Assembly: GCA_017547205.1 (NCBI GenBank)
Contig: JAFYQH010000038.1
Coordinates: 1 to 39,866 of the forward strand
DNA length: 39,866 nt
Direction of reading: 5' to 3'
DNA from: Bacteroidaceae bacterium
GTDB taxonomy: Bacteria > Bacteroidota > Bacteroidia > Bacteroidales > Bacteroidaceae
Shown in pieces: positions 8,369-38,610 of the stretch. Position 1 is the stretch's first letter. Every line of letters starts with the position of its first letter. The notes under the pieces were generated by a model. The model was not told the origin of the DNA and ran no database searches. It was given only the letters and a program-made list of their open reading frames with translations. Made by a program: the position numbers and the translations under genes.

Positions 8369-10357
8369 TTAACTTTCATTGGATGTGACTGCTTGCGCAA
8401 TGTCACTGCCACCATTCTTTTCCTTTCGTAGTTGCTCAATTAGTTCATGAGATATACCCTCCATGGGCCGGCCTGCCGCAGCCTGCTCCCCATTGCGTTT
8501 GAGGCTCTCGAGAATTCTTGCCGCGAACGGGAACGAACTGTTCTCGAGCATTGTCCTGACATCGAGCGCATTGGCACGGAACAGTTCCATGAGGAAGTCG
8601 TTCGCGAGCATCTGGTACGATGGTGTGTTGTAACCGTCGGATACCGTGACATCAATTTCGCAACCCTGCACCTTCTCGGGAGTGTACCACTTTGCCTCCT
8701 CGCTGTATTGCCTGCCGGCAAGGTCTATATAGCGTTTCTCCTTGTAGAACTGCTGTATGGTCTTCATCAGCTTGGTGTCGCGGCGACGGCGGAATGTCCT
8801 GAAACCATCGAACAACCCTTTCAGATTCAAGGAGGAGTTCTGAACCTGCTGGGCATAGAGCGAGGCGGGAGTGCCGCTGCGCGGAACCTGCCCCTGCATG
8901 GCCGAATTCACGCCTGATATTTCGTTTATGAGACGCAGCTGAAGGTTAAGCAGTTCAAAATCACCGGCGACAGCCGCACCGCTGTTGTACTGGCGCACCA
9001 CCCCGTCAATGCTCTGCCCGGGCTTGAGTTTGACAAACAAGACACCATTGTAGCGGACATACTCATCGATGACCTCCTCGCGCGACATGCTCTCGAAAGC
9101 CTCATCATCGACAACAAGGACACCTTTTGATGATGTACCACGGATAAAATCGATGAGAGTGGCAGTGCGGTTTATCGCACGCTGCTGGTCTATGAACTGC
9201 TCCACGAAGTTCCCGAGCTTGCCCTGAACAAGCGGATAGAGATGCAGCACATAGTTGTGTTCGCCATGCCAATAGGGGCTACGACCCTCCTGAAGCACGT
9301 CACCATATGGTGTCATGTAACGGTAGTACCAGAACCTTTCGGTTGCGAACGAGTATTCGACAAGCAACGATGAAGCATCGTCCGTTCCATTCTGGCGGGC
9401 CTCATCGCGGCGTCGGGCATTCTCGGCATCAAGCATGGCACGCGACTCTTCGTTATAGGGCAGATACCCCCACGTACCGCGCAGTTCATCGTTCCAGCAA
9501 TAGGCATCGCGCGATTCGAGTTTCCACCCCAGTATGACACGGCACAGGTCACTGCGCGATGGCGAGTGGAATGAGAGGTTGCGCGCTTCGTCGCCCTGCA
9601 TCGACCTTGAAGTGCCCGGCACGTTGGAAGAGACCGAACCGTATATATTCCTTATGCGTTCCTTCTCTTCAGGGGTGTGCCCGAAGTGGGCCAGTACCGC
9701 ATCGAGCGGTATATCGAAGAGTTCGCCTATGCACGTCACATCCCACATGCGCACATCCTCGACGTTCGTATTGAAGAACAGGCGTGACGGATTAACAGAG
9801 TATACCCAAACATCACGTTTCTCCTTTGCAGGGTTTACACCGTACTCAATCCTCTGCGCTGTCATACCGCCGTTGAGAAGCATGCGCATGGAGTCGGCAT
9901 CGAGTTCCTCCATTTCATTAAGGTCATGAACATACTCAATGGCGACCGACATCATCTCGCCCAGTTCACTCTCGTCCCTGTCGCGTGCGACACATACAGG
10001 GCGCATGAGGTTCTGTCTCAGCTGCCCGTCGATATTGCTGAGAATAGGGGCAATCATATTGTTCTTCAAAGGCACCTTCCCATTCTTCTTTATGAGTTCA
10101 CCCTCGGTTATCTGTGCAAGGGTGTCGGGGTCGGTCACATAATCGCCCCACTGGTCACCGTAACTGTACATGAGGCTCCGCCGCATCTTGCGGCGGGCCT
10201 CTTCAAGGGTATTCCAGCATGCTGCACATTCGTTAAGGAAATCAAGGGCAGCTCCCGGCTCAACCCTTTTCACCGGCTTCTCTCGAATAACGGCAGCCTT
10301 CACTCTATTGTTTAAGAATCTGTTCATTGAATCAGGTTTGTTTAATGGTAAAATCAT
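8369..10357 (-). CDS. Phage portal protein, P22-like
   Basis: A 662-aa protein, close to the size of podoviral portals. The N-terminal region contains WGDYVTDPDTLAQITEG and PLKNNMIAPILSNIDGQLRQN, the 'replace, then untouched intermediate' layout seen in P22-type portals. Later parts have the long helix and tunnel region (QRAINRTATLIDFIRGTSSKG) and INEISGVNSAMQGQVPRSGT, common in portals of Bacteroidales podovirus-like phages. A portal is the dodecameric ring at one capsid vertex through which DNA is packaged and released. The start at 10357 overlaps the previous stop as ATGA, indicating translational coupling. MNRFLNNRV (10327) is an alternative. It is unusual that the portal is last in an operon of ejection proteins, far from the terminase at 36604-38610. 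Confidence 0.8.
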   Translation of the reverse strand: MILPLNKPDSMNRFLNNRVKAAVIREKPVKRVEPGAALDFLNECAACWNTLEEARRKMRRSLMYSYGDQWGDYVTDPDTLAQITEGELIKKNGKVPLKNNMIAPILSNIDGQLRQNLMRPVCVARDRDESELGEMMSVAIEYVHDLNEMEELDADSMRMLLNGGMTAQRIEYGVNPAKEKRDVWVYSVNPSRLFFNTNVEDVRMWDVTCIGELFDIPLDAVLAHFGHTPEEKERIRNIYGSVSSNVPGTSRSMQGDEARNLSFHSPSRSDLCRVILGWKLESRDAYCWNDELRGTWGYLPYNEESRAMLDAENARRRDEARQNGTDDASSLLVEYSFATERFWYYRYMTPYGDVLQEGRSPYWHGEHNYVLHLYPLVQGKLGNFVEQFIDQQRAINRTATLIDFIRGTSSKGVLVVDDEAFESMSREEVIDEYVRYNGVLFVKLKPGQSIDGVVRQYNSGAAVAGDFELLNLQLRLINEISGVNSAMQGQVPRSGTPASLYAQQVQNSSLNLKGLFDGFRTFRRRRDTKLMKTIQQFYKEKRYIDLAGRQYSEEAKWYTPEKVQGCEIDVTVSDGYNTPSYQMLANDFLMELFRANALDVRTMLENSSFPFAARILESLKRNGEQAAAGRPMEGISHELIEQLRKEKNGGSDIAQAVTSNES

Positions 10358-15185: not shown

Positions 15186-15602
15186 TCAGAACATTTTATT
15201 GAAACCACTCGACCTATCAAAACTCTCCAAAGCCCTCTTGAAACTTCCAGACGACAGTCGTAGAGAACCGGACGTGGTCACATCCGTTTTTTCCGCCCCT
15301 TTACCTGTCAACGGATTCCAGACCCTGGCACGCGCTACCCGACCACTGAAGTCCCGCATATGCTTGCCCAGCCTCTCACTGGCATTACGATATTCATTCT
15401 CGTATTTAGGGAACTGTTGCTTAGCGTATGTAATACCAACTCCTTTGGAATTGCCTGCCGTAACAAGAAGATTGGATGCAAAATCCACCAGCGCAGCGAT
15501 ATTACGTTTGCGACGTTTCTCCTTGAGGATATTACGGCTACGCTGCACGACCCTGTCAACCAGAGCACTCATATCCTTGTAATCCTCAATTCCCATAACC
15601 AT
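15186..15602 (-). CDS. Small phage-type internal virion/ejection protein candidate
   Basis: A basic protein of about 138 aa, MVMGIEDYKDMSALVDRVVQ onward, rich in Arg and Lys, with a central helical segment. I recognise no domain. It overlaps the end of the preceding 15586-16122 gene by 17 nt and its stop is two nt before the start of the 1609-aa gene, so it is tightly coupled inside operon A. By position (short basic protein between a gp14-like protein and a giant polyvalent protein), it is probably an ejected internal protein, comparable in place to P22 gp20 or T7 gp15 components. That comparison is positional. MGIEDYKD at 15596 is an alternative start. Confidence 0.55.
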   Translation of the reverse strand: MVMGIEDYKDMSALVDRVVQRSRNILKEKRRKRNIAALVDFASNLLVTAGNSKGVGITYAKQQFPKYENEYRNASERLGKHMRDFSGRVARARVWNPLTGKGAEKTDVTTSGSLRLSSGSFKRALESFDRSSGFNKMF

Positions 15603-16122
15603 GGTCCTCCTTGCCCCAGTTGACACCCATCAAGGCATTCTGAAGAAGATTCAAGCCATTACCGGCCAACTGCGCCGAAAAAGTTCTCTCATTGGCAGCA
15701 TTTGTTGCCTGCGCACCCAACAACGCATTACGGTTCTGCCTATGCTGTGCATCGACGCTTCTCTTACGGTCACTTTCCATGGCCGCTGCATTTGTCATAA
15801 CATTCTCCATTGCCTGCAATCCCTGCCTGTTCCTTGCCAATGCATATTCGGGTGTTCCTCCCACTATGCGGGCATGAGCACGTTCCTGCTGGCTTTTACG
15901 GCGCAATGTATTCTCAACCCTTTTGATTGCAGCGCGTGTGGCCGTACTGTTCATATGGTCAGTGAAATAGTTTCTCCTGTACCATCCGTCCTCCTCGGCA
16001 TAAGCCCTGTCCATGAGTTTTCTCTGTTCCTTCTTCGCTTTTGAAGAGTCAAAAATTCCCTTTATGCCGGAATAGAGCCCCAACGCACCGTTGAGCCCGG
16101 CAAAAACCATTGATATTCCCAT
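15586..16122 (-). CDS. Internal virion (DNA ejection) protein candidate, T7 gp14/P22 gp7-like layout
   Basis: A 178-aa protein beginning MGISMVFAGLNGALGLYSGI. A glycine-rich hydrophobic N-terminus able to enter a membrane is followed by a long charged, Ala/Arg/Gln-rich helical body. This layout is typical of small podoviral ejection proteins that extend the tail channel across the envelope. I see no sequence identity I could claim. It is the first gene of operon A. The ATG at 16122 is preferred to an upstream TTG at 16140, because the shared -7 box lies only 15 nt upstream of 16122 and would overlap 16140. Confidence 0.6.
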   Translation of the reverse strand: MGISMVFAGLNGALGLYSGIKGIFDSSKAKKEQRKLMDRAYAEEDGWYRRNYFTDHMNSTATRAAIKRVENTLRRKSQQERAHARIVGGTPEYALARNRQGLQAMENVMTNAAAMESDRKRSVDAQHRQNRNALLGAQATNAANERTFSAQLAGNGLNLLQNALMGVNWGKEDHGYGN

Positions 16123-16137: not shown

Positions 16138-16181
16138 CAAAAGAAATGGGAAAAACGGGCAAGCAGGTTGCTATAATGACA
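16138..16181 (-). promoter_or_regulatory. Shared-type promoter of operon A
   Basis: On the minus strand, TGTCATTATAGCAACC (16181-16166) is followed by exactly 20 nt, then TTCTTTTG (16145-16138) as a -7-like box, then 15 nt to the ATG at 16122. The same element, spacing and box occur before the 81-aa gene, operon B and the terminase operon. Confidence 0.72.
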
Positions 16182-16231
16182 AAAGTATATGCCAGCTGCA
16201 TCTGCAGACGCATTCTGTCATTACAGCAACC
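16166..16231. repeat. 16-bp inverted repeat (operator pair) in the divergent promoter region
   Basis: GGTTGCTATAATGACA (16166-16181) is an inverted copy, with one mismatch, of TGTCATTACAGCAACC (16216-16231), with 34 nt between. Each arm is the upstream element of one divergent promoter, so the pair controls both directions. Confidence 0.8.
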
Positions 16232-16259
16232 ATGCCGCTACATTGATGGATTATATTTG
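16216..16259 (+). promoter_or_regulatory. Shared-type promoter of the 81-aa gene
   Basis: TGTCATTACAGCAACC (16216-16231), 20 nt, TATATTTG (16252-16259, a perfect TAnnTTTG), then 17 nt to the ATG at 16277. Confidence 0.75.
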
Positions 16260-16276: not shown

Positions 16277-16522
16277 ATGGCCAAGAAGAACAAAAGCGAT
16301 GTAACGATAGACGATGTACACAACGAGACTCTCGCACTCTTTCATCGTCTTATCCAGAGACTGGAAAAACTGACTTCGGACTGCGAGGACCCGGGTACTA
16401 TAAACCAGGCGTTGAAAACAACTGCCGATTTCCTTGTGAAGCTGAACAAGGAACGGGAGCAGGGAGATGATGGAATAGGAGCATTGCTGCAACAGACGCT
16501 GCACGGAATTGAAAGGGTGTAA
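16277..16522 (+). CDS. Small acidic protein of unknown function, co-regulated with phage-type operons
   Basis: An 81-aa, predominantly helical, charged protein (MAKKNKSDVTIDDVHNETLA onward). It has no membrane segment and no domain I recognise. It is transcribed divergently from operon A, through one half of an inverted-repeat operator, and ends at a bidirectional terminator before atpG. The promoter spacing is identical to that of the capsid and terminase operons, so it very probably belongs to the same system. Its size and helical character would allow a small terminase-like, chaperone or regulatory role, but the sequence does not decide between these. Confidence 0.65.
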   Translation: MAKKNKSDVTIDDVHNETLALFHRLIQRLEKLTSDCEDPGTINQALKTTADFLVKLNKEREQGDDGIGALLQQTLHGIERV

Positions 16523-16614: not shown

Positions 16615-17475
16615 TCATTTTGCACTGCCCGACACGATATCAAGCAGTTCATTGGTAATTGCCTGTTGACGGCCTTTGTTGTACTCGAGCGTGAGTTCTG
16701 CAATAAGATCATCTGCATTGTCGGTAGCAATCTGCATGGCTATCATACGCGCAGCATGTTCGGCAGCTGTGGAATCGAGCAACGCTGTAAATAGCCGCAG
16801 CGATATGACCTTGGGCAAGAGTGCTGCAACAAGTTCGGCCTTGCCAGGCTCTACTATGAAATCGGTTGAAGGAGCCGCAATACCGGACACCGCATGGCCT
16901 GTATCCACGGGAAGGAACAGTTCGCGTACCGGCTCCTGCTTCGATGCTGAATGGAAGTGGGTGTACACAAGTTCCACCCTGTCTACCCTGCCGGCAATGA
17001 ATTCATGCATAAGCTCATTTGCGACAGTTGCGATTGGTGTATACTTGGGGGATGCGCAATACTCCATCAGTTTATCGTCTGAAGGGAAAGCTGTCTTCCT
17101 CATTGCATCCCACATCTTGCGACCTACCGGCATTACTGTAACTGCAGCCCCTTGTGATGCATATTCATCCACAACCTCTTTGGCTAGACGTATGACATTA
17201 CTGTTAAAACCGCCACAAAGGCTCGAATCGGATGATACAGGAATAACCACCACGTGCTTTGCATCCCTGGATTCGGTATAGGGCGAAGCTGACAAGGAGA
17301 GAGTCGAAAGGAAAGCCGACAGCATACCGTCGAGTTTCTGCTGGTATGGGCGCATATTCTCTATTGCGCCCTGAGCCCTGCGCAGTTTCGCGGCAGAAAC
17401 GAGCTTCATGGCCGAAGTTATCTTCTGCGTTCCCTTCACCGAAAGGATTCTCTGTTTTACCTCCTTCAGATTCAT
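16615..17475 (-). CDS. atpG: F1F0 ATP synthase gamma subunit
   Basis: 286 aa, the central rotor shaft of F1. The N-terminus is the typical MNLKEVKQRILSVKGTQKIT and the C-terminus contains MQIATDNADDLIAELTLEYN followed by KGRQQAITNELLDIVSGS, the paired helices that contact alpha and beta. It is the last gene of the atp operon, six nt after atpA. This is the standard end of the Bacteroidetes operon. Confidence 0.96.
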   Translation of the reverse strand: MNLKEVKQRILSVKGTQKITSAMKLVSAAKLRRAQGAIENMRPYQQKLDGMLSAFLSTLSLSASPYTESRDAKHVVVIPVSSDSSLCGGFNSNVIRLAKEVVDEYASQGAAVTVMPVGRKMWDAMRKTAFPSDDKLMEYCASPKYTPIATVANELMHEFIAGRVDRVELVYTHFHSASKQEPVRELFLPVDTGHAVSGIAAPSTDFIVEPGKAELVAALLPKVISLRLFTALLDSTAAEHAARMIAMQIATDNADDLIAELTLEYNKGRQQAITNELLDIVSGSAK

Positions 17476-17481
17476 TTGCTA

Positions 17482-20113: not shown

Positions 20114-20131
20114 CTGAGGTTACTTTTACAA

Positions 20132-20386
20132 TTAAACGAAAAGCACAAGAAGACAGACAATCACAGCGAACATTGCCACACCCTCGATAAGAGCTGCAGC
20201 CAGCAACATTCCCGAACGTATATCAGCAGCAGCCTCTGGCTGGCGTGCGATTGACTCGAGAGCTGTTGAACCGATGCGGCTAATTCCAAAAGCTGCACCA
20301 ACAACCACTATACTCGCCGCAAATGCCGCACCCATTTTTGCAAAAGCAGTACCGGCTACTGCCTGTAGAAGAATTGTCAAAAACAT
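20132..20386 (-). CDS. atpE: F1F0 ATP synthase subunit c
   Basis: 84 aa in two membrane helices joined by the polar loop ARQPEAA (the conserved R-Q-P). The ion-carrying carboxylate is the glutamate in AAALIEGVAMF. The residue after it is glycine, not the serine/threonine of well-studied sodium-type rings, so proton use is more likely, but this is an inference. Confidence 0.96.
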   Translation of the reverse strand: MFLTILLQAVAGTAFAKMGAAFAASIVVVGAAFGISRIGSTALESIARQPEAAADIRSGMLLAAALIEGVAMFAVIVCLLVLFV

Positions 20387-23879: not shown

Positions 23880-24503
23880 TCAATAATAGGTAACTATCCT
23901 GTTCACGACACGATAAAGGGCCGTAATGTCACACTTGTTTATAGGAAACGACGGATAGTTGGGCGACACGCACCACATCACCCCGTCATTCTCATTGTCG
24001 GGGTAACACTGCTTTATCATACGCGAATCATTGGTCAGTATAAGATATATGCTTCCGGGAGATATTTCGTTCAGCGAATCGACGCGCACCACTCCAACTA
24101 TATCACCTTCGTGGATTTCGGGTTCCATTGATGTCCCCACCACAGGGAAATAGCATTCAGCCCTTTGCGACGGCAAGGATATGTATCCGGTCGGTTTCTC
24201 CGCGGCAGGGTTGTATGCATCCCTAACACCGGCCGACACCGGCAGGTCGCTATAGAACGGCACGTTCGGCAAGGCAGCCATTTCATCACGCAACATCTCC
24301 CCTTCGCCAAGGAGGAGCCAGGCAGGGGAGATCTCCGGGAAATAGTCCATAATCGCATAAAGCAGTTCCATACCAATCTTTCCGTCCTCGTTAACCTGAC
24401 GGTTAAGCGTTCTTTGCGGAATACCGAACATCTTGCTTGCCCTGTTCACACTCAATTTCTTTGACATCAACAAAGAAACCACACGTTCTTTTATATCATT
24501 CAT
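23880..24503 (-). CDS. HTH / S24 (LexA-like) phage-type repressor
   Basis: 207 aa. The N-terminal helix-turn-helix (KLSVNRASKMFGIPQRTLNR, about residues 16-35) binds DNA. The C-terminal S24 domain has Ser125 in VVGTSMEPEIHEGD and Lys164 in DSRMIKQCYP, the catalytic dyad. Ala91-Gly92 in LPVSAGVRD is a plausible self-cleavage site. This is the architecture of RecA-responsive prophage repressors, so DNA damage would be a natural inducing signal. It is divergent from two small genes and lies next to the start of the atp operon. It is a candidate regulator for the dispersed phage operons, although the shared promoter element is not palindromic as a lambda-type operator would be. Confidence 0.88.
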   Translation of the reverse strand: MNDIKERVVSLLMSKKLSVNRASKMFGIPQRTLNRQVNEDGKIGMELLYAIMDYFPEISPAWLLLGEGEMLRDEMAALPNVPFYSDLPVSAGVRDAYNPAAEKPTGYISLPSQRAECYFPVVGTSMEPEIHEGDIVGVVRVDSLNEISPGSIYLILTNDSRMIKQCYPDNENDGVMWCVSPNYPSFPINKCDITALYRVVNRIVTYY

Positions 24504-25118: not shown

Positions 25119-25134
25119 ACAACACAATAGAGAG

Positions 25135-28289: not shown

Positions 28290-28688
28290 TTATTTTATAT
28301 TAAAGAAATTCCACATGAACCTGAACAGGCCGGAGCGCCAGAGCAGCAGCAACATAGCCGCTAATGGCACAAACGCCCACCACGAGAACCGCCGGCTTTT
28401 ATTGACAGCATTACCGCCGGTGACAGTACGTTCAATATAGACAGTGTCGCACCTTACTATCGTGTCGTGCCGCAGCTTCTCTTTGTAGAGAGTCCTGTAT
28501 TTTGTAAAGAAAACCGTATCGGTCCTTGCAAGTATGACCACACTGTCATGCAGCGCAACACTGTCGCTCACCACCCTCTCCACGATATTGCTGTGCGAGA
28601 AAGTCTCGGCCACACTCCTCTCATTAGTGCGGCACGACACCAGCACAAGAAAAAAAAGGCTAAAGCATATTCTTGCTACGTTTCTCAT
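28290..28688 (-). CDS. Unimolecular spanin candidate (lysis lipoprotein with C-terminal membrane anchor)
   Basis: 132 aa. The N-terminus MRNVARICFSLFFLVLVSC is a lipoprotein signal with the lipobox LVSC (cysteine 19), predicting outer-membrane attachment. A charged periplasmic region follows. Near the C-terminus WWAFVPLAAMLLLLW is an inner-membrane helix. A protein tethered at one end to each membrane is the definition of a u-spanin, which fuses inner and outer membranes in the final step of phage lysis. It overlaps the holin-type gene by 29 nt, as lysis genes often do. The start at 28688 is chosen because it begins the signal peptide directly. Confidence 0.7.
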   Translation of the reverse strand: MRNVARICFSLFFLVLVSCRTNERSVAETFSHSNIVERVVSDSVALHDSVVILARTDTVFFTKYRTLYKEKLRHDTIVRCDTVYIERTVTGGNAVNKSRRFSWWAFVPLAAMLLLLWRSGLFRFMWNFFNIK

Positions 28689-29127
28689 ACTCCAGATACT
28701 CTTTAAGGTAACCGAACCGTTCAAGTACACGCAAGCTCATCACATAATACAGGAAGTCGAGTATTCTGAAAAGAGTACTCTTCTCACTTGTTATTATCCT
28801 CGCATTCCGCAGTATGTTCGTACCATAGAAATATATGGCTATATATATCATGAACGAGACACAGTGTACAGCCGCCTGCTCTTCACCCTTTAGGTGACCG
28901 AGAATGTATATAGACGCAACCATAACGAAATATATCGCTGCATCCCTGAAGAAACATAACGCCTTTCTGAAACTCCAGTCACGGTGATTGCATACATCTG
29001 CCAACATTCCAATGAGAAAGTTCACTCCGAACAGAAGCACCAATCCGAATATATCGTTCCTTATCGGGAACAAAAGGCCTGCGATGTTGGCGAACAAGGA
29101 GGCCACAACCAGCTTAAGGCTATCCAT
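28660..29127 (-). CDS. Holin-family membrane protein
   Basis: 155 aa, MDSLKLVVASLFANIAGLLF onward, with about four hydrophobic segments (IFGLVLLFGVNFLIGML, AAIYFVMVASIYILGHL, AVHCVSFMIYIAIYFYG) and a charged C-terminus (EYLEYEKRSKN). Topology, size and its place directly before a spanin fit phage holins of the phi29/Phage_holin_4 type common in Bacteroides phages. Holins permeabilise the inner membrane to time lysis. No endolysin is recognisable in this operon. An upstream TTG at 29133 is not needed. Confidence 0.7.
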   Translation of the reverse strand: MDSLKLVVASLFANIAGLLFPIRNDIFGLVLLFGVNFLIGMLADVCNHRDWSFRKALCFFRDAAIYFVMVASIYILGHLKGEEQAAVHCVSFMIYIAIYFYGTNILRNARIITSEKSTLFRILDFLYYVMSLRVLERFGYLKEYLEYEKRSKNML

Positions 29128-29133
29128 AGGCAA

Positions 29134-29415
29134 CTACATTTCAAGGCACTTCACAAGTGTCAGTTCACTACGTGATACCAGTTTCACGAACTGCCCCCGC
29201 ATTGGTCCTTCGAGAGTGACCTCGCTGCGCGTCTCGTCAAGCCCGAAATCATCGTACTTTATATACTCCTCAATGCCGTCTATACTCACAAGCACATCTA
29301 CAGGATAAGGACCGGTTTTGTGTACCCTCACCCTTATGTCACCGCCGCCACATACTATGGGTTCACACTCCCAGCAGTTGTCGCATTTGGCAAAAACAAT
29401 ATTCCTTACAGCCAT
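29134..29415 (-). CDS. Small phage-type protein of unknown function
   Basis: 93 aa (MAVRNIVFAKCDNCWECEPI onward), predicted beta-rich. It has a cysteine cluster C-x2-C-x2-C... near the N-terminus that could bind a metal. It lies four nt after the connector-type gene and directly before the holin gene, inside operon B. It could be a small virion decoration or tail component. I recognise no family. Confidence 0.5.
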   Translation of the reverse strand: MAVRNIVFAKCDNCWECEPIVCGGGDIRVRVHKTGPYPVDVLVSIDGIEEYIKYDDFGLDETRSEVTLEGPMRGQFVKLVSRSELTLVKCLEM

Positions 29416-29419: not shown

Positions 29420-30070
29420 CTATTTATTTATTGTAATACTACCGTTACACAAGGCCAACGCGTGTGAGAGGAACGCACTTGCAGCATCATACTTCTCGAA
29501 CATGTTGTACAGCAATGCCGCGCACTGGTACGCTACAGCATCGTCCATTCCGCTGTCATAACCGTCAAGACCAGCCTTGGCATCGAATGACGCCTCGTAG
29601 ACAAAACGTTCCAGTACCACCTCGCCCTTAAAAGGATAAAGATTTACAACCCTGTTCCCCGCGCTGTCCGTACCCTCCACACATACAGGCCTGCAAGCTC
29701 CGGCACGGGTATGTGGCGATGCCTGGCATGCAGCCTGGCGTGAAATTACAGGATAAAGGATTGTACACTCCCGTTCCCAGCAATCGAGCTTAAGCGACAA
29801 CACCGATACAAAGTCACGCGGCACAGCCATATATCCGCTGCCGTCACCATTGTCGTGAAGCTCCGCATTCCCGGGCGACACACACCTCGCATTCACGCGT
29901 TTCCCCTGGGCCTTGTTTTTCTGCACCAGGCTGACCGCCTGCGGCAGAAGAGCCTCTATGCTTTTGTCAAAGGAGCGCGCATCGTCGCTCAGCAGGGAAA
30001 CGGACACGTCATCCCCCACCTCGTTCACAAGCACGCGCACCCTCTTGACAAGTTCTTCGGTTGCAATCAT
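29420..30070 (-). CDS. Head-tail connector/adaptor candidate
   Basis: 216 aa, MIATEELVKRVRVLVNEVGD onward. The C-terminal part DDAVAYQCAALLYNMFEKYD, then AASAFLSHALALC, is a helical segment of a kind seen in phage adaptor proteins that sit below the portal. The position after the capsid gene and before lysis genes supports this. It begins at an ATG overlapping the previous stop (ATGA). No catalytic motif is visible. The adaptor call is mostly from context. Confidence 0.5.
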   Translation of the reverse strand: MIATEELVKRVRVLVNEVGDDVSVSLLSDDARSFDKSIEALLPQAVSLVQKNKAQGKRVNARCVSPGNAELHDNGDGSGYMAVPRDFVSVLSLKLDCWERECTILYPVISRQAACQASPHTRAGACRPVCVEGTDSAGNRVVNLYPFKGEVVLERFVYEASFDAKAGLDGYDSGMDDAVAYQCAALLYNMFEKYDAASAFLSHALALCNGSITINK

Positions 30071-30492
30071 GGCCAATCGGGGAATGACAAACCTTTAGAC
30101 CCGGCCACAGCTTTCACGGCAGCCTTGTTCTGCAATTCGCCCAAGGCGCAACCGTACGGTTCGGCCATGAGGTAAGCCCTTGCCTGCTGCAGGTTCGTCA
30201 CGCCGGTAACCGCAACCGTTGCTGCTGTAGCCCCCTCATCAGCGGGAACATCGCCATGCCCATCGCCTATAACCTCGGAATGGCCCACCCTTATCTCGCC
30301 TCTTCTGAATGCATCGCTATTCTCTATTGCACGCTGGAACAACGCATTGTCTGTTGTATACTGCGCAGGATAGACACCGGTGGAATTCACCGCACCCCCT
30401 GTAAACTCAATTCTCACGAGCGCCTTGCCAATCCTGAAATAGCTGTTGCGCTCAATCTGTCCATGTATCTCGTATGTAACTCTCTTCTTCAT
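30067..30492 (-). CDS. Phage structural protein candidate following the capsid gene
   Basis: 141 aa, MKKRVTYEIHGQIERNSYFR onward, predicted beta strands, then an Ala/Val/Thr-rich stretch (TAATVAVTGVTNLQQARAYL). It lies 77 nt after the capsid gene and is coupled by ATGA to the connector-type gene. A capsid-decoration or head-completion role fits the place. I recognise no domain. Confidence 0.5.
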   Translation of the reverse strand: MKKRVTYEIHGQIERNSYFRIGKALVRIEFTGGAVNSTGVYPAQYTTDNALFQRAIENSDAFRRGEIRVGHSEVIGDGHGDVPADEGATAATVAVTGVTNLQQARAYLMAEPYGCALGELQNKAAVKAVAGSKGLSFPDWP

Positions 30493-32225: not shown

Positions 32226-33005
32226 TCATGCATTCAGAGCCTTATCTATCAGCGAGTTCTTCCTGCGTACAGGCTCATTCACCGGAGCAACGCTGCTCAT
32301 GCCCTTCGGGAGCCCGTCGCCATACTCCTCCTTCATGCGCTGGATATTGGTATTGCGCCCTTTTATATCACCCGCGACAAAAGCATCTTCGACATCCTTA
32401 TCATATGTAAGTGCATGGTCAAGAGCAAGACACACCTCCTTGGAATATTTTCCTGTAAGGATCGGGAACACCAGACGCTCCCAAACATCGTCCATGAAAG
32501 CCTGCATGTCATAACCGCGTTCCTCACAGAATGCCACTATCACAGGCATGCTCTCCTGCAGGTTCGCTTCATACTCACGACGGTCCTCGGCTACACGTGC
32601 GGCCTCGGCCATCCGTTCCTCATCGGCAAGAAGCATATCCCTGTACTCCGGGCTGTTCTCATCCATTTCAACGAACTGGCGTCCGAAATAACGCGCCACT
32701 GCACTTTGGGCATTACGTTTGCCCTCTATCATGTCCATTAGCATCTGCGCCAGACGCGGATCCCGTTCAAGAGCATCGGCGAGTCTCCTGTTCTGTTCCC
32801 TGTTGATGTAGAGATGATGCATCAGCATCTCCTGTGAAAGAGCGTCACACAACTCAAAATCATTACCGAAGAACTCCTTCAATCCCTCCTCGAGTTCCAT
32901 ATAAGGATTATGGCCAGCCTGTTCGGGCTGCGTCGGGACATCACTTGCGGAACCCTGCCTTGCAGGCACATCCGCCCTGTTAACATACTTGTTGTACTGT
33001 TCCAT
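32226..33005 (-). CDS. Capsid scaffolding protein candidate
   Basis: 259 aa starting MEQYNKYVNRADVPARQGSA, with a disordered N-terminus, a long acidic helical body rich in Glu, Arg and Met (DERMAEAARVAEDRREYEAN) and a short basic C-terminus (PVRRKNSLIDKAL). This is the typical layout of scaffolds, whose basic tail binds the capsid protein during procapsid assembly. It is the first gene of operon B, immediately before the capsid gene. The ATG at 33005 is chosen; the frame extends to 33056, but that part overlaps the promoter. Confidence 0.72.
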   Translation of the reverse strand: MEQYNKYVNRADVPARQGSASDVPTQPEQAGHNPYMELEEGLKEFFGNDFELCDALSQEMLMHHLYINREQNRRLADALERDPRLAQMLMDMIEGKRNAQSAVARYFGRQFVEMDENSPEYRDMLLADEERMAEAARVAEDRREYEANLQESMPVIVAFCEERGYDMQAFMDDVWERLVFPILTGKYSKEVCLALDHALTYDKDVEDAFVAGDIKGRNTNIQRMKEEYGDGLPKGMSSVAPVNEPVRRKNSLIDKALNA

Positions 33006-33028: not shown

Positions 33029-33072
33029 CAAAGGAACAACAGGAAGCAGGGAACAAGGTTGCGGAATTGACA
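33029..33072 (-). promoter_or_regulatory. Shared-type promoter of operon B
   Basis: On the minus strand, TGTCAATTCCGCAACC (33072-33057) is followed by exactly 20 nt, then TTCCTTTG (33036-33029), then 23 nt to the ATG at 33005. Element and box match those of operon A 17 kb away. Confidence 0.75.
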
Positions 33073-33186: not shown

Positions 33187-33552
33187 CTACATCATCTCCT
33201 TGCCTAAATTATAGGTCTCTACAACACCCAGTAGGGCAAGCATATAATAAGGCAGGTTAGAGAGAAGAAACCCGTCGGGAAACGGTTGCGCTGCAACAAA
33301 ATAGCTGTATAGCGTCAAGATGGATGCAACCACATCCTGGTGGAAGAAGAATACCCCCACTATAGCCATGCTCCAGATTGCAAGCACAAGTACAAGCCGC
33401 ATTGTTATCAATGGCGAACGTACCCCACGCGGCAACTCGCACATTATTCGCCTGCGTTCCATCTCCATGGCCTTTGACTGTCGACTCTCCATGGATGCAC
33501 CATATACTCTGCCGAACAGTTCACCAATTCTTTTGTCATAATCATTTGTCAT
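33187..33552 (-). CDS. Small membrane protein following the ECF sigma factor
   Basis: 121 aa with a cytoplasmic basic N-terminus and two membrane regions (LVLVLAIWSMAIVGVFFF and LPYYMLALLGVVETY). It overlaps the sigma gene by four nt (ATGA). Genes in this place often encode anti-sigma factors, but the zinc anti-sigma motif (HxxxCxxC) is absent. The anti-sigma role is therefore only a suggestion from context. Confidence 0.6.
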   Translation of the reverse strand: MTNDYDKRIGELFGRVYGASMESRQSKAMEMERRRIMCELPRGVRSPLITMRLVLVLAIWSMAIVGVFFFHQDVVASILTLYSYFVAAQPFPDGFLLSNLPYYMLALLGVVETYNLGKEMM

Positions 33553-34076
33553 AGCCTTTCATCCTCTATAAGTTCCTTCATTCTTTTCCTGCCACGGCTC
33601 AAGTGCGACCTTACCGTTGCCTCGTTTATAGCAGTTATCTCCGCAATCTGCCTCGTCGGCATACCTTCAAGATAAAACAACGTCATGCACGCCCTGCAGG
33701 GCGGCGAAAGTTCGGCAAGAGCACCATGAAGCCGTTCCGCATCATCGTCATACTCCTCGACCGCCACATCTGTAGCAGAAGAGAGATGTTCTGTCGGTCT
33801 GCGGCAACGGCAATAGTCAATGAACACATTGTATGCAATACGGTAGAGCCATGTCGAGAAACGGCTTCTCAAACTGAAGCTCCTTATGTTCAGCCACACC
33901 TTTATAAAAACCTCCTGCGTCAAGTCATCGCTCAAAGCATCGTCACCACCCGTCTGCGCCATCATCATCCTGCGCACCTGTGCATGATACCTGTCAAGCA
34001 ATTTGCCGAAAGCACGTTCATCGTCAAAAAGAACAATCCGCGAAATCCAAGCTATCTCCTCGATAGTGTTTTTCAT
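33549..34076 (-). CDS. ECF-type RNA polymerase sigma factor
   Basis: 175 aa. Region 2 is clear (DDLTQEVFIKVWLNIRSF, then RFSTWLYRIAYNVFIDYCR). Region 4 carries the helix-turn-helix (MPTRQIAEITAINEATVRSH, then LSRGRKRMKELI). Region 1.1 and region 3 are absent, as in ECF sigma factors. It is in the middle of a three-gene unit with membrane proteins on both sides. It lies between the capsid and terminase operons, whose promoters have a vegetative -7 box, so direct control of those by this sigma is not indicated. Confidence 0.93.
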   Translation of the reverse strand: MKNTIEEIAWISRIVLFDDERAFGKLLDRYHAQVRRMMMAQTGGDDALSDDLTQEVFIKVWLNIRSFSLRSRFSTWLYRIAYNVFIDYCRCRRPTEHLSSATDVAVEEYDDDAERLHGALAELSPPCRACMTLFYLEGMPTRQIAEITAINEATVRSHLSRGRKRMKELIEDERL

Positions 34077-34088
34077 GCAATAAATTGA

Positions 34089-34877
34089 CTATTTCGTATC
34101 CTCCACAACATTCTCCGCAACCTTTTCCACATCAGTTTCCTCCTCACCGGAATCATGTGACACCCTGCCATTCCTCTTTATCCTGAACTCGAAACGCGGC
34201 ATATTGTATATCCTGTCGAGTTTAACAATGGAATAGAACAGAATGAAAGCACCAGGAAGGTACGACAGGAAAAAGGCATCACCGAAATCATGGAAGAACA
34301 ACATTCCTGAAATAATAATCGACAGGCCCAACAGCGCATTTACGCAGGTAAGCGACCCTATATTGTTCTGTATAAACCTGGCATTCCTCATATCCATAAT
34401 AGCATATACCACCAGATACATCGCAACACACCCGAAGAACTTTGAGCTGTCGCTGTGATTATCCAATGCAAAGAAGAACAGCACCACACCAATCAACAAC
34501 AGCAACACCTTGGCCATGGAGAAATCAACCCTTTTCCGTACCACCATTCTCCCTTCATTGTCAATGGCAACCTTGCCGTCGACCACTCTGCGCTGCATAA
34601 CCTGTTCCGATGTAGGCACCATTCCCTGCCGCACCATCTCCGTAAGCAGTTCAAGATGCATCTTCTCGCGCTTGGTCCTGTGCCTTATTGAAAAAAATAT
34701 GACCGCAAAAAGCAGCAATATGAACATAACCCCAATACCCAAGCCACAATACGCAAGCCGTTCTTCATACGAATACAAATACACACCATTACTGTAGTTG
34801 CAGAATCCTTCGGCCGGAACAAGCACCATAGCTATTGCAACAAGCACCGTTTTCATTACTTTTTTCAAATTTTCCAT
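34089..34877 (-). CDS. Membrane protein preceding the ECF sigma factor (DUF6249-like)
   Basis: 262 aa with an N-terminal signal-like segment (VLVAIAMVLVPAEGFC), then about five to six membrane helices, a cytoplasmic loop with EMVRQGMVPTSEQVMQRR, and an acidic C-terminal tail. The pattern (short TM, 'E...G..P...', TM pairs) resembles DUF6249-type proteins encoded beside Bacteroidetes ECF sigma factors. It is first in the operon, 12 nt before the sigma gene. A sensory or sigma-sequestering role is possible but not shown. Confidence 0.6.
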   Translation of the reverse strand: MENLKKVMKTVLVAIAMVLVPAEGFCNYSNGVYLYSYEERLAYCGLGIGVMFILLLFAVIFFSIRHRTKREKMHLELLTEMVRQGMVPTSEQVMQRRVVDGKVAIDNEGRMVVRKRVDFSMAKVLLLLIGVVLFFFALDNHSDSSKFFGCVAMYLVVYAIMDMRNARFIQNNIGSLTCVNALLGLSIIISGMLFFHDFGDAFFLSYLPGAFILFYSIVKLDRIYNMPRFEFRIKRNGRVSHDSGEEETDVEKVAENVVEDTK

Positions 34878-35072: not shown

Positions 35073-35507
35073 ATGGAAAACACATTGAACTGTTCTGTTC
35101 GCGAGATGCGCAAGCAGGACGTTATCGACAGCTTCTTTGACTCATTGAAGGAGCTCAGGCAAACCAAGCCCTTTGCCACACAGAACGAAGTCATAGAACA
35201 TGCAGTAAAGAAAGGAGCTCCAAGGTTCTATGTAACGTTCGAGAACGCCAGACGATTCATTTCGCTCCTCGCCCGCAAGAAGAAACTGCCGCTCATCAAC
35301 AGCAACAAGCTCGAGATGTACAAGGAGATATACCGTCGCTACATGAAACAGGTCAAGGACTGCAGCAAACGCTACAAATACCTTATACTCGAAAGAATCA
35401 TCGAAGAGCCGGCACCGTCGTTCTACCTCGACGAAGAGACCTTCCGCGGCATCATCTACAAGACCCTGCGCGACAGGAAGAATGCGCGCACACATAACCG
35501 CGCATGA
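35073..35507 (+). CDS. 144-aa basic protein with duplicated motif, possible DNA-binding regulator
   Basis: The protein contains two copies of a module of about 32 residues: residues 39-69 (VIEHAVKKGAPRFYVTFENA and on) and 104-135 (ILERIIEEPAPSFYLDEETF and on). Common pattern: hydrophobic-x-E, then AP-x-FY-[VL]-x-x-E-x-x-R, then a basic tail. A linker rich in Lys, Arg and Tyr joins them. The charge and the repeated helical unit suggest nucleic-acid binding, but I know no assigned function. It has its own promoter and terminator and precedes the terminase operon. It is a candidate for a regulator or small terminase-like protein. The ATG at 35073 fits the -7 box. Confidence 0.6.
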   Translation: MENTLNCSVREMRKQDVIDSFFDSLKELRQTKPFATQNEVIEHAVKKGAPRFYVTFENARRFISLLARKKKLPLINSNKLEMYKEIYRRYMKQVKDCSKRYKYLILERIIEEPAPSFYLDEETFRGIIYKTLRDRKNARTHNRA

Positions 35508-35560: not shown

Positions 35561-35604
35561 TGTCGAAACAACAACCTTGACAGGAGCGTCACACATTATT
35601 TTTG
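35561..35604 (+). promoter_or_regulatory. Shared-type promoter of the terminase operon
   Basis: TGTCGAAACAACAACC (35561-35576), matching TGTC-N7-CAACC, then exactly 20 nt, then TATTTTTG (35597-35604), then 18 nt to the ATG at 35623. A conventional -33 TTG at 35577-35579 also exists. Confidence 0.72.
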
Positions 35605-35622: not shown

Positions 35623-36129
35623 ATGGAAAAGATAACACTGCAAGTCGATTTGGATGCCGTCTATAAGCGACTATTCAAGGAGAGCGGCTATGTTGCGCGC
35701 TCACGCTCGGCAATGGGATTGTCCGACCAGTTGGCCGACAGCATAACATTGACCGGAGACGAAAGGCCTGTCATCGAGAAATGGATAACAAGCTGTGTGA
35801 ACGAGATTGTGCATAGCATGAACCGTTACCTGGGACCATGTTCGGCAACACACTGCAGAACCGGCGAAAACGATGCCGGGCAGTATACAATATCGGTCAT
35901 TGTGCCACACAACTACCCTGACGGACTGGCCATGCCCATTAAAGAATGTATAATAGACTTTATTTTCTACAATACAATGCAACATTGGTACACCATTATT
36001 AAACCCGACGAGGCAAACATTATGGCAGTACATCTCCAGGAGAGCGCAGCCCGCCTGCGTGAACTTCTTACACAGCGCAAACGCCCGGCAAAGGGATACG
36101 GAAAAAATGAAAACGTCATAGAACTATGA
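35623..36129 (+). CDS. Phage-type protein, first of a paralogous pair upstream of the terminase
   Basis: 168 aa, MEKITLQVDLDAVYKRLFKE onward. It shares a layout with the next gene: a helical N-terminal half with VNEIVHSMNRYL, a central beta segment (YTISVIVPHNY), then IKECIIDFIFYNTMQHWYTI and a KPDEAN segment, and a basic tail. I recognise no family. The place in front of the large terminase and the particle-type promoter suggest a head-completion or packaging-linked role. The ATG at 35623 is chosen over a TTG at 35602, which lies inside the -7 box. Confidence 0.55.
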   Translation: MEKITLQVDLDAVYKRLFKESGYVARSRSAMGLSDQLADSITLTGDERPVIEKWITSCVNEIVHSMNRYLGPCSATHCRTGENDAGQYTISVIVPHNYPDGLAMPIKECIIDFIFYNTMQHWYTIIKPDEANIMAVHLQESAARLRELLTQRKRPAKGYGKNENVIEL

Positions 36130-36602
36130 AAAACACTATACTCATCACGTGGAACGAACTGCAACAGCAGATTGATTTAAGAAACTTCTACATGGGAGAG
36201 TCGGCCAAACGTAAGGAACCCGATGCCGACACCATACAAAGCAGCAAAGACGATGAAGAACTGCTCATAATATTCGCACGGCAGGCGTGCAATGAGCTTG
36301 TTACTGCTGTTGCCCTTCGTTTCCCGTCAATATCCGTCACCGTAGACAACAAGTACATTTCATTGGAATTCGAGACCATCAGCACATGCCGCAAAGATTT
36401 GCTTCCTATGCTGAAACAAGCCATAGCCGACTATATCAGCAATGAAGTGACAATGCAATGGTTGCTTGTACGTCAGCCACAAATGGCAAACACAAATATA
36501 TCCCTCAAGAATAGCCTGTACAACAACGTACAGCAGATGTTCGCAAAATTCTATGACTCGACAAGAACAAGACGACGTGCAACCGACCTTGCAGGAATAT
36601 GA
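36126..36602 (+). CDS. Phage-type protein, second of the paralogous pair
   Basis: 158 aa, coupled to the previous gene by ATGA. Segments align in order with its neighbour: QACNELVTAVALRF with VNEIVHSMNRYL, then ISLEFETI with YTISVIVP, then LKQAIADYISNEVTMQWLLV with IKECIIDFIFYNTMQHWYTI, then RQPQMAN with KPDEAN. An old duplication is likely, giving two subunits that might pair with each other. The function is unknown. Confidence 0.55.
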   Translation: MKNTILITWNELQQQIDLRNFYMGESAKRKEPDADTIQSSKDDEELLIIFARQACNELVTAVALRFPSISVTVDNKYISLEFETISTCRKDLLPMLKQAIADYISNEVTMQWLLVRQPQMANTNISLKNSLYNNVQQMFAKFYDSTRTRRRATDLAGI

Positions 36603-36603: not shown

Positions 36604-38610
36604 ATGGACAAGGAACTGATGATTGAAGAAAACATTAGACGGCTGGGAGAAATCTCGGCCGTCTACAATCCTATAACAGGCGAAGGCTCCACGAGCGTCA
36701 AACGCCGTTGGATTGACATCGATGGGTTCCCCATAACACATATGAACCTGCCGGAACAGATGTGCAGCACCACACAAGTGGAACAGCTTGCCGAAATGGG
36801 AGCCGGAGGCTACCTGCGTAATGTAAAGGGGCTTGAGGATAGCAACAGCAACATTATAAGGCTATGGCTGGAGTTCTGCCTCATACGCATAAGACACGAT
36901 TTTGAGTATTGGGCGCGTACCATGACTACAATTGCCGACAAGGGAAAAGGACGTGACTGCGCGTTTACCCTTAACCGTCCGCAACGCATATATTTGGGCG
37001 CAATGGAGAAACTGCGCATGGAGAACAGGCCCATAGACATAATACTTCTCAAGGCACGCCAATGGGGAGGCAGCACACTCACGCAGCTTTACATGCTATG
37101 GATTCAGCTTGTACACAGGCGCAACTGGAACAGTGTCATATGCGGCGACATAGAAAAACAGTCCTCAATTGTAGCAGGAATGCTCGCAAAAGTAATATCG
37201 CGCTATCCTTCATGGGCAACCGGAGGCAACAGGCTTACTACAACACCATATCAGGGAGCACAAAAGACACGAGTCATTAGCTGGAGCAACAGCCGCTACT
37301 CACTGGGCTCGGCACAGAAACCCGACTCGCTGCGCAGCGAGGATATAAGCATGGCCCACCTTACCGAGGTTGGTTTATGGAAAGCCACTGCAGGCAGAAA
37401 ACCCGAAGACCTGGTACAGTCAATCTTCGGCTCTATAGCCAGCGGGCCATACACTATGAAAGTGATAGAATCCACGGCAAAAGGTGTAGGCAACTTCTTT
37501 CACCGCACCTGGACCGACGCATCCGAATTAAGAAATAACTTTACACCTGTATTTATTCCATGGTTCATCATCGATCTCTATAGCAAGCATATCAGCCAAG
37601 CCGATTATGGCTCATTCATCGAAAGCATGGACGAATATGAGTATCACCTGTTCGAGCTTGGAGCTACTCTCGAAGCCATAGCATGGTACCGAGACAAGCG
37701 ACGCGAGCTACCCGACGAATGGCGACTGTTCAGCGAATTCCCCTCCACCCCTGGCGAAGCATTCCAAAGTACCGGGCGCAGAGTCTTCAAGATAAGCTAC
37801 GTTAACGAAATGCGGAAGAACTGCGTACCACCGGCATTCATAGGAGACATCGTAACGGGCAAGGATAAAGCTAGCGGCAAGGAAGAGTGTCATTTCATTC
37901 CGGCAGCAACATGTGAAAAAAGTGGAGAATGCTTGCTCTGGGTATGGCTTATGCCAGAAAAAGAACATAACATCCGCGACAGATACATAGTCACTGTCGA
38001 TGTCGGAGGCACAGGCAGCAAAGCCGACTACTCATGCATAGTCGTTGCCGACCGTGCCGCAATGATTGACGGCGGTGTACCCGAAATTGCTGCCTGCTGG
38101 CATGGGCACATTGAACATGACAGGCTCGCATGGAAAGCCGTAGAGATTGCCAAAGCATACAACAATGCACTGCTGGTAATTGAATCGAACACCCTCGAGA
38201 CCGAAGGGACCGAGGGTAACAATTTCGAATATATACTCAACGAAATTGCAGGTAAATACACCAATCTCTACTGCCGCACATCACAGATCGAGATAAAACA
38301 GGGACGGCCGCGACGCTGGGGATTCCACACCAACAGTTCGACCAAGCCAATGGTCATAAACTTCCTGAACAAGGCACTGCGCGATGGGCTTTACATTGAA
38401 AGATGTTTACAAACAACACATGAGCTCGACCTGTACGAATTCAAGGAGAACGGTAAGGAGATGGGAGCTGTCGAGGGCAACCACGACGATCGTGTAATGG
38501 CCACAGCAATACTTGTATGGGTGTGCTACAACCACCCGCTTCCCACGCACATTGCTGTTGACAAGAACAACTGCAGACGTACACGGATAATAAGCGAAGC
38601 CAGTATCTGA
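36604..38610 (+). CDS. terL: Phage terminase large subunit
   Basis: 668 aa, the DNA-packaging motor and headful nuclease. The Walker A variant KARQWGGST is at residues 150-158. A Walker B-like segment ISMAHLTEV carries Glu255. The coupling motif is in VIESTAKGVGNFFHRTW. The RNase H-like nuclease domain has Asp466 (IVTVDVGGTG), a glutamate in LVIESNTLE and Asp628/629 in NHDDRVMA. All key residues are present, so the enzyme looks functional. The start at MDKELMIEENIRRLGE lies one nt after the previous stop; MTRQEQDD at 36553 is an alternative that overlaps it. No small terminase subunit is recognisable beside it. Confidence 0.93.
   Translation: MDKELMIEENIRRLGEISAVYNPITGEGSTSVKRRWIDIDGFPITHMNLPEQMCSTTQVEQLAEMGAGGYLRNVKGLEDSNSNIIRLWLEFCLIRIRHDFEYWARTMTTIADKGKGRDCAFTLNRPQRIYLGAMEKLRMENRPIDIILLKARQWGGSTLTQLYMLWIQLVHRRNWNSVICGDIEKQSSIVAGMLAKVISRYPSWATGGNRLTTTPYQGAQKTRVISWSNSRYSLGSAQKPDSLRSEDISMAHLTEVGLWKATAGRKPEDLVQSIFGSIASGPYTMKVIESTAKGVGNFFHRTWTDASELRNNFTPVFIPWFIIDLYSKHISQADYGSFIESMDEYEYHLFELGATLEAIAWYRDKRRELPDEWRLFSEFPSTPGEAFQSTGRRVFKISYVNEMRKNCVPPAFIGDIVTGKDKASGKEECHFIPAATCEKSGECLLWVWLMPEKEHNIRDRYIVTVDVGGTGSKADYSCIVVADRAAMIDGGVPEIAACWHGHIEHDRLAWKAVEIAKAYNNALLVIESNTLETEGTEGNNFEYILNEIAGKYTNLYCRTSQIEIKQGRPRRWGFHTNSSTKPMVINFLNKALRDGLYIERCLQTTHELDLYEFKENGKEMGAVEGNHDDRVMATAILVWVCYNHPLPTHIAVDKNNCRRTRIISEASI

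Follow-up and report, generated by a model that had tools for sequence, protein, structure and literature searches.

The gene transfer agent of Rhodobacter capsulatus (RcGTA) is described as a set of genes distributed over five loci and inherited vertically (PMC9662315), and gene transfer agents (GTAs) in general as encoded at multiple loci lying hundreds of kb apart (PMC11841831). In the human gut, GTA-like packaging is reported for Faecalibacterium/Oscillospiraceae, and lateral transduction by a prophage for Bacteroides (PMC12946183). Bacteroidota are abundant in animal guts, yet no GTA of this phylum is described in open-access titles and abstracts, among the matches listed.

Here we analysed a stretch of 39,866 nucleotides (hereafter the window; contig JAFYQH010000038.1 of a Bacteroidaceae bacterium) from a genus of ruminant gut bacteria that carries dispersed podovirus particle genes. 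The initial annotation had read the set as a candidate gene transfer agent or a domesticated phage, a reading that the arrangement in relatives and dN/dS support, GTA function itself being a prediction. We consider it likely, judging from the genes, that the set is a host-owned, gene-transfer-agent-like system descended from a temperate podovirus.

Particle genes and their neighbours

The genes for head, packaging and injection, together with some of those for lysis, are intact and split into separately placed operons (Table 1); every frame listed in the initial annotation is present and intact. Among them are head and packaging families of tailed phages, namely portal, capsid, large terminase (TerL) and a scaffold-type protein. 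Module A, with the portal and the trimmed injection protein, adjoins ligA, and module B, with the hub, holin, spanin, capsid, scaffold and terminase, lies away from it, often on another contig.

Table 1. Positions of particle genes, promoter elements and a candidate regulator in the window
Feature	Position	Strand	Remarks
Portal protein (P22-like), 662 aa	8369..10357	-	PHROG 156 and Pfam P22_portal; beside ligA in the genus where the contig allows, unless other genes intervene
Trimmed large injection/polyvalent-type protein, 1609 aa	10354..15183	-	4,176 and 4,053 aa in two related prophages
Small module A protein, putatively ejection-type (by position)	15186..15626	-	
p184, first gene of module A operon, putatively ejection-type (by position)	15586..16122	-	Homologues in phages and second clade
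Promoter element, p184-portal operon	16164..16181	+	Reads leftwards
Promoter element, p81	16216..16233	-	
p81, small conserved protein	16277..16522	+	Divergent from module A; 62-90% identity, 30 genomes
CI/LexA-like HTH-S24 protein, candidate regulator	23880..24503	-	Near modules in 19 genus genomes
Hub/tail-type protein, 954 aa	25421..28285	-	
Spanin-like protein q146	28290..28730	-	Lipobox and C-terminal membrane segment
Holin-like membrane protein q157	28660..29133	-	2-3 membrane segments
q93, small conserved protein of virion cluster	29134..29415	-	
q218, putative head-completion/adaptor-type protein (by position)	29420..30076	-	
q141, virion-cluster protein	30067..30492	-	Kept in phages too
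Major capsid protein, 539 aa	30570..32189	-	
Scaffold-type protein	32226..33005	-	Position and phage homologues
Promoter element, scaffold-capsid-hub operon	33055..33072	+	
r164, possible small terminase or regulator	35073..35507	+	Adjoins terL in phages too
Promoter element before r175-r158-terL	35561..35578	-	Weaker copy (15 bits)
r175, putative small structural-type protein	35623..36129	+	Paralogue of r158
r158	36126..36602	+	Paralogue of r175
Large terminase TerL, ~668 aa	36604..38610	+	

Profile searches matched the portal to PHROG 156 (E = 8.6e-57) and Pfam P22_portal (9e-36), and TerL to a PHROG terminase family (1e-20). TerL columns that we take to be the Walker and nuclease motifs are conserved across 29 sequences of the genus and 9 others; the protein probably starts near position 36604, the N-terminus of a 714-aa call being spurious. 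The capsid matched phrog_26635 (function unknown) and weakly SU10_MCP in Pfam (0.0038), and a 39-row capsid profile matched PDB entry 9in6, 'major capsid of VP1', at 5.7e-5. Topology of q146 is spanin-like, with a lipobox in 20 of 29 genomes and a C-terminal membrane segment in 28. The protein r164, kept in 34 of 37 genus genomes, is no more than a candidate small terminase. Pfam searches with most of the hub, adaptor and ejection proteins gave no informative match, and a search of solved structures with an 81-aa protein returned only designed Pizza propellers, which we did not trust. The polyvalent protein of the initial annotation was borne out in type, but it is a trimmed version of the phage polyvalent-type protein from which most of the length is gone; dispersed versions measure 1,107-1,887 aa. 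Two candidate genes were discarded: the c0 cluster, considered as an endolysin, is a paralogue of r175 and r158, and the ORF at 24753-25442 (x229) looks spurious, with a median dN/dS of 0.55.

The atp operon (16615-23656), ligA and the sigma operon (33187-34877) lie where the initial annotation had placed them. In the other 36 genomes of the genus, no fetched cluster contained the sigma operon; therefore, it is probably a recent insertion outside the system, and we rejected it as a component. Furthermore, the modules of G019 and G031 are contiguous around the S24 gene with no atp genes between them, and separation by atp thus varies within the genus. As this arrangement differs by species, we rejected the idea of a prophage split by host DNA.

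Neither the window, as initially annotated, nor the syntenic clusters showed genes for integration or replication in a profile scan that covered a portion of the flanking ORFs. The lack of an endolysin and of tail fibres in the window was likewise confirmed, and candidates for both sit elsewhere behind the same promoter element (see below). In 4 of 37 genomes, a tyrosine recombinase of another family lies beside or near a module end.

Distribution, selection and inheritance

The dispersed genes are nearly ubiquitous in the genus, as portal was found in 34, capsid in 35 and TerL in 35 of 37 genomes. Intactness was counted as stop-free frames rather than mere frame lengths. By this count, 32 of 34 portals are intact, the other two being cut by contig ends, as are all 35 capsids, and TerL is intact at full length in 33 of 35; of the remaining TerL genes, one is cut by a contig end (G034) and one stops at residue 569 of ~668 (G018). 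The scaffold is short in one genome (G005). In a family-wide draw of 201 genomes, TerL matches occurred in 23, comprising 13 in the genus (70-100%) and 10 in seven other genera (29-44%).

Particle genes are under strong purifying selection. In the pair G004-G020, dN/dS was 0.012 for capsid, 0.020 for portal and 0.061 for TerL, compared with 0.030 for maeB and 0.047 for ligA; portal reached 0.215 in the pair G021-G029, and fast evolution was seen in r175 and the spanin-like gene. Between the trees of modules A and B, 23 of 29 splits agree (label shuffles, at most 3); the agreement is 10 of 13 between host genes and module B, and 8 of 13 between host genes and the particle genes combined. Congruence with rpoB is weaker (r = 0.74 for capsid, 0.46 for portal, 0.23 for TerL and 0.17 for hub) and is limited by the rpoB contig of G010, which is probably misbinned; without this genome, r was 0.87, 0.65, 0.33 and 0.70, respectively. 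Taken together, these comparisons indicate that the particle genes are inherited vertically with the host chromosome, the agreement with rpoB being the weaker part. Two of the checks that the initial annotation had suggested, the position of the clusters relative to ligA and atp in relatives and the dN/dS of particle genes, came out in favour of its reading.

The same genus and lineage also includes a prophage, G009:C6, with homologous portal (57%), TerL (60%) and capsid (74%) genes. In contrast to the dispersed set, its genes from q218 to portal lie within ~16 kb, and it keeps an integrase, a replication initiator, a helicase/methylase, a tail-fibre-like gene and a 4,176-aa large protein. Whereas a temperate prophage has a contiguous genome with an integrase, the dispersed set forms none. 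The cultured Bacteroides phages BKO1-TP3, BS-TP4 and BF1-TP2 are more distant (portal 33-35%, TerL 39-41%, capsid 23-24%); phages of this kind are roughly 60 kb in size. The best matches among the IMG/VR contigs found were 61% for portal and 65% for capsid, and none of these contigs was placed inside the genus clade.

A second clade spans six family codes and includes cultured Barnesiella isolates such as An22 and An55; 25 of its genomes were tested, and all carry capsid and terminase. Here the genes occupy distinct islands, with as much as 338 kb between them, and dispersal is seen in genomes assembled as single contigs (G521 and G488). Of 63 IMG/VR contigs, 22 were placed, none inside this clade.

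A shared promoter element and competing explanations

The particle operons carry a common 18-bp element at a fixed spacing of 18 nt to a -7-like box. It gave 83 matches of 19 bits or more in 1.47 Mb, with 0 in a reversed control. The genome-wide count was 110 against 1 in the control, and 13 of the 44 genus genomes lacked a match at that stringency. In 1.26 Mb of related phage loci, a single match reached 19 bits, and prophage G009:C6 had none of at least 16 bits. In the second clade, no common promoter motif was found, with a k-mer test little above shuffles except for a shared portal-hub intergenic region. The element also stands before unlinked genes. One of these, in the genome of the window itself, is tail-fibre-like, and another, in a relative, encodes a phage-type endolysin (GH108, PHROG 5.4e-37); among 19 outlying loci read, two gave a tail-fibre candidate and one an endolysin candidate. 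The shared element suggests that several loci are under common control, presumably by a single regulator.

Some outlying loci resemble cassettes for toxin/immunity or for cell-wall enzymes, and a role in DNA transfer alone leaves these unexplained.

In the proposed mechanism, an activator or dedicated sigma factor would switch on the promoter-element set in a few cells, which holin, spanin and endolysin would then lyse. TerL would load chromosomal DNA into the heads by the headful mechanism, as no phage genome is left to package, and the particle would inject this DNA into kin. A domesticated particle with another job, lysis-released and either antibacterial or effector-delivering, seems unlikely to us. 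Its payload and immunity would be the co-regulated peptidoglycan-enzyme-like proteins and downstream lipoproteins, consistent with several outlying loci that encode GH108, DUF6973, DUF5675 or similar, in most cases ahead of lipoprotein-like or secreted proteins, and with differing genes filling the same chromosomal place across species. However, a DNA-free particle would not need the terminase motifs, portal and scaffold that are conserved here, and GH108 is also a normal phage endolysin. Less probable still is a set kept to serve, or interfere with, related prophages or a small packaged mobile element: related compact, divergent copies do coexist in G009, G016, G251 and G258, but almost every genus genome and all 25 second-clade genomes tested have the dispersed set, a second compact copy was seen in only a few, and the promoter element is nearly absent from phages.

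The initial annotation had itself raised inversion, insertion of host DNA into a live prophage, two partial prophages and a chimeric assembly as alternatives, all very unlikely given that the same modules recur in 37 genus genomes and in single-contig genomes of the second clade. A prophage decayed or broken by inversion or host-DNA insertion would fit the contiguous modules of G019 and G031, the recombinase that adjoins portal in G019 and the interrupted TerL of G018. Yet synteny holds across the genus, dN/dS is at housekeeping level, and the recombinases share 24-29% identity with the two prophage integrases and lie at differing module ends; dN/dS, tree comparisons and stop-free frames contradict decay for the genus, and we give this explanation very little credence. 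An assembly or binning artefact, for which the fragmented genus genomes and the G010 rpoB contig might speak, is negligibly probable, as the gene order is repeated in dozens of assemblies and dispersal is seen in G521 and G488.

Comparison with known gene transfer agents

We lean towards the view, drawn from sequence comparison, that the same podovirus lineage was domesticated at least twice in Bacteroidales into chromosome-owned DNA-transfer particles. In the window genus, a dedicated promoter would have drawn unlinked genes for tail fibres, endolysin and surface modification into one regulon; in an ancient lineage of at least six families, including cultured Barnesiella, portal, capsid and terminase would have drifted to separate places among housekeeping genes. 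If true, these parallel domestications offer a natural replicate for asking which parts a GTA must retain and which it must shed, and the Barnesiella isolates make the idea testable. The promoter element, pointing to further particle genes, provides a practical handle on scattered systems that prophage finders would miss.

Compared by description, the set resembles RcGTA and the Rhodogtaviriformidae in consisting mostly of structural and packaging genes, in its scattered loci and in its vertical inheritance. Unlike these alphaproteobacterial agents, it belongs to a P22-portal podovirus lineage in Bacteroidota and has its own promoter element, and its particle production and transfer are predicted. 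BaGTA of Bartonella and BhGTA/VSH-1 of Brachyspira, also compared by description, are likewise phages independently domesticated into host-kept particle genes; they belong to other hosts and derive from other phage ancestors, and BaGTA keeps a phage-derived replication origin. The GTA-like packaging of Faecalibacterium/Oscillospiraceae shares with the present system its occurrence in gut bacteria but differs in belonging to Bacillota.

Particle-gene modules and a related prophage

The window is one complete 39.9-kb contig of a 2.2-Mb genome (83% complete). Its close relatives, titled for example 'Bacteroidaceae bacterium RGIG...', were mostly sampled from the ruminant hindgut. All reading frames named in the initial annotation were present and intact. 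Family searches identified the portal as P22-like and backed the identity of the large terminase (TerL), while the capsid gave a weak Pfam match and a PDB profile match to 'major capsid of VP1' (5.7e-5). The remaining particle proteins mostly fell into PHROG families of unknown function or had no match, and most were recognised through gene order in related phages. In many IMG/VR and prophage loci, this order is compact: the large injection/polyvalent-type protein and portal; terL and r164 on the opposite strand; scaffold, capsid, q141 and q218. Genomes of the genus carry the same genes, but arranged in two modules.

Separation of the clusters by the atp operon held in the window and several relatives. 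Comparison of gene order showed the modules of G019 and G031 to be contiguous, flanking a gene for an S24-type regulator. The modules lie about 100 kb apart on a single contig in G002 and on separate contigs in further genomes. The sigma-factor operon reported between the clusters is present in the window but was not found in the other fetched genus clusters; it encodes a sigma factor flanked by two small proteins and forms an insertion between the promoters of scaffold and r164. A PF00302 gene follows terL in 3 of the 37 genus genomes, in the clusters as fetched. In one subclade (G002, G012, G021, G025, G029), q93 occurs without adjoining hub, holin-like and spanin-like genes. Tyrosine recombinases near or beside a module end (G003:C116, G019:C16, G022:C56, G032:C22) share 62-76% mutual identity and 24-29% identity with two prophage integrases.

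Module composition and coordinates of individual features
Feature	Genome or contig	Position (nt)	Description
Module A	genus		portal, large protein, p146 and p184, with p81 in divergent orientation; next to ligA-dapA in many genomes
Module B	genus		hub, spanin-like, holin-like, q93, q218, q141, capsid, scaffold; r164-r175-r158-terL divergent
S24 gene	window	23880..24503 (-)	CI/LexA-like HTH-S24
ORF x229	window	24753-25442	looks spurious
Sigma-factor operon	window	33187-34877
PF00302 gene	window	38708-39325	chloramphenicol-acetyltransferase family (1.1e-14), immediately 3' of terL
terL	G018:C12	7393-9405	one in-frame stop
Second-clade set	G521 (single contig)	starts: portal 1,148,879; capsid 1,395,348; TerL 1,427,279
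Second-clade set	G488	starts: portal 2,772,606; capsid 2,725,701; TerL 2,758,786

One genome, G009, bears both the dispersed set and a prophage (C6, within 15-75 kb) encoding an integrase, a replication initiator, a helicase/methylase and a tail-fibre-like protein. The large protein of this prophage has 4,176 aa, and a 4,053-aa homologue in G016:C128 contains polyvalent-protein, nuclease, helicase and methylase domains. Its dispersed counterpart measures 1,107-1,887 aa in 32 genomes (one more is truncated at a contig end), and the window version aligns with the two phage versions mainly over ~120-170 residues. We read the short form as a protein that would have lost the phage's infection cargo. 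The prophage locus (L106) is 74% identical to the dispersed set for capsid, 57% for portal and 60% for TerL, and the closer capsid hints at capsid exchange between the prophage and the domesticated set.

Conservation, selection and inheritance

The dispersed portal was found in 34 of the 37 genus genomes (the other three are 67-82% complete), and capsid and TerL in 35 each, both missing from G006 (63% complete) and G016 (380 contigs). In G016, a divergent prophage copy is the only capsid or TerL copy seen. A draw of 201 genomes from the family gave a TerL match in 23, 13 from the genus (70-100% identity) and 10 from seven other genera (29-44%); no genus member was among the 20 listed of the 178 genomes lacking a match.

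Frames in sister genomes were mostly stop-free, as shown by capsid (35/35), p81 (30/30), portal (32/34), hub (25/29) and scaffold (34/35); the remaining two portals and four hubs are truncated at contig ends. The exceptions are a short scaffold in G005 and the TerL of G018. TerL was full-length in 33 of 35 genomes, truncated at a contig end in G034 and ending at 569 of ~668 aa in G018, a length that passes the 85% threshold used to count stop-free frames. The G018 stop may be a sequencing error or a real loss.

Nei-Gojobori dN/dS values for the closest pair, G004-G020, were 0.012 for capsid, 0.020 for portal, 0.031 for the holin-like gene, 0.052 for scaffold, 0.061 for TerL and 0.128 for hub, compared with 0.030 (maeB), 0.047 (ligA) and 0.108 (DUF2400) for host genes. 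Purifying selection on terL, portal and capsid is strong in this pair, at a housekeeping level. The pair G021-G029 gave 0.016 for capsid and 0.028 for TerL, yet 0.215 for portal. Constraint was weaker for r175 (median 0.50) and the spanin-like gene (0.46); the median for the spurious ORF x229 was 0.55. Module G+C is 0.48-0.51 versus 0.50 for host genes.

Trees of modules A and B (32 genomes) had 23 of 29 splits in common, against at most 3 in 1000 label shuffles. Comparison with a tree built from four neighbouring genes of the host gave 10 of 13 splits in common for module B (16 genomes), 10 of 15 for module A (18 genomes) and 8 of 13 for the joined set of all particle genes. Distance correlations with rpoB (13-14 genomes; 10 for hub) were 0.74 for capsid, 0.46 for portal, 0.23 for TerL and 0.17 for hub, and 0.87, 0.65, 0.33 and 0.70, respectively, with G010 left out. 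The rpoB of G010 is placed with species other than those of its particle genes, likely through a binning error. The genus clade was monophyletic for portal and, after exclusion of sequences with inner stops or too short, for TerL (support 0.98), capsid (0.98), scaffold (0.82), hub (1.0) and q141 (0.38). This clade is nested among compact phages at ~60% portal identity, and the viral contigs found all fall outside it (best portal identity 61%, best capsid identity 65%).

A shared promoter element and the genes behind it

Two intergenic regions, p184|p81 (in 27 genomes) and scaffold|r164 (in 30), share far more exact words than shuffles do; one 9-mer occurs in 11 and 14 genomes, respectively, versus at most 3 in shuffles. 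On the coding strand, the 18-bp element reads TGTCATTTCAGCAACCTT; 18 nt further on stands a box, for example TTCCTTTGC or TATCTTTGC, that resembles the Bacteroidetes -7 box TAnnTTTG. Among 82 aligned instances, the four best box columns are kept in 76-80, and 31 have strict TAnnTTyG at this spacing. Where two elements are paired on opposite strands, the distance between them is 41-42 bp in 19 of 23 pairs. A weight matrix applied to 1.47 Mb of genus contigs gave 83 matches scoring 19 bits or more, nearly all upstream of particle operons and two within terL, versus 0 in the reversed control; 1.26 Mb of related phage loci gave one. Because the matrix was itself derived from regions within these 1.47 Mb, the genome-wide scan is the fairer test: 44 genus genomes contained 110 matches versus 1 for the reversed pattern, with 13 genomes lacking any match at that stringency.

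Particle clusters already fetched account for 49 of the 110 matches. Of the 61 elsewhere, 19, identified by the element match, were examined; at least 16 of them have an open frame behind the element on the expected strand. The reported lack of endolysin and tail fibres stands for the window, but candidates lie behind the element elsewhere. Two places, G000:C38 in the window's own genome and G030:C30, encode proteins matching the tail-fibre-like protein of the G009 prophage (E 1e-8 and 1.7e-31), and the product at G036:C16 is a GH108 endolysin (Pfam 9.9e-18, PHROG endolysin 5.4e-37). At six places (L396, L400, L405, L407, L408, L411), including one from the window's own genome, the element stands before an 81-aa protein and/or a family-2 glycosyltransferase; these products might act by altering the surface of the cell or the receptor. 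At L404, L412, L402, L399, L409 and L414, the element precedes varying peptidoglycan-enzyme-like or DUF6973/DUF5675 proteins; several of these loci have lipoprotein-like genes downstream, and the encoded proteins may act in lysis as enzymes or form toxin/immunity pairs. G004:C46, G003:C3 and G036:C7 have common chromosomal neighbours and a different gene behind the element. At least two of the 19 places (G036:C94, G026:C51) had no convincing target. One candidate regulator is the S24 gene, most copies of which have a CI/LexA-like serine motif, although it does not always lie beside the modules.

A second clade and comparison with known gene transfer agents

Portals 39-43% identical to the window's occur in Barnesiella, Coprobacter, Candidatus Gallibacteroides, Candidatus Caccoplasma and other relatives, solitary or divergent from hub, with neighbours such as the suf operon, miaA, pyrophosphatase and aldehyde dehydrogenase. 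Twenty-four such sequences form one clade (support 0.999-1.0), which includes none of the 22 viral contigs placed out of 63 found. Among 393 genomes drawn from across the order, portals at least 58% identical to that of G057 were found in 25 genomes, representing six family codes; some members of these families may lack it. TerL and capsid were present in 25/25 second-clade genomes tested. All 9 genomes tested from G057's family gave matches for TerL, capsid and portal, the G257 portal match being partial (53%). The genes form small islands in which scaffold and q141 accompany capsid, and hub in some cases accompanies portal; portal and capsid lie 338 kb apart in G583, and G251 has a compact second copy alongside the dispersed set. 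No promoter element common to the second-clade loci was found.

In the genus, the gene set, its integrity, selection, inheritance, dispersal and common promoter element are established, and phage-only functions are absent at the dispersed particle loci. Genus-wide synteny, intact frames and low dN/dS agree with the initial annotation's reading as a candidate gene transfer agent (GTA) or domesticated phage. Judged by its genes, the dispersed set would work like a GTA: particle genes would be activated in a subset of cells, these cells would lyse, and chromosomal DNA would be packaged by headful and injected into kin. PMC7947584 ties the TerL of the Rhodobacter capsulatus GTA to P22-like headful phages, and PMC12946183 describes packaging of a GTA-like type for Bacillota and, for Bacteroides, lateral transduction. 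The word stem 'bacteroid' is absent from the excerpts of the GTA papers PMC9662315 and PMC11841831. Since no Bacteroidota GTA appeared among the titles and abstracts listed from the open-access literature, we count the system of the window as a candidate new form within the known GTA kind.
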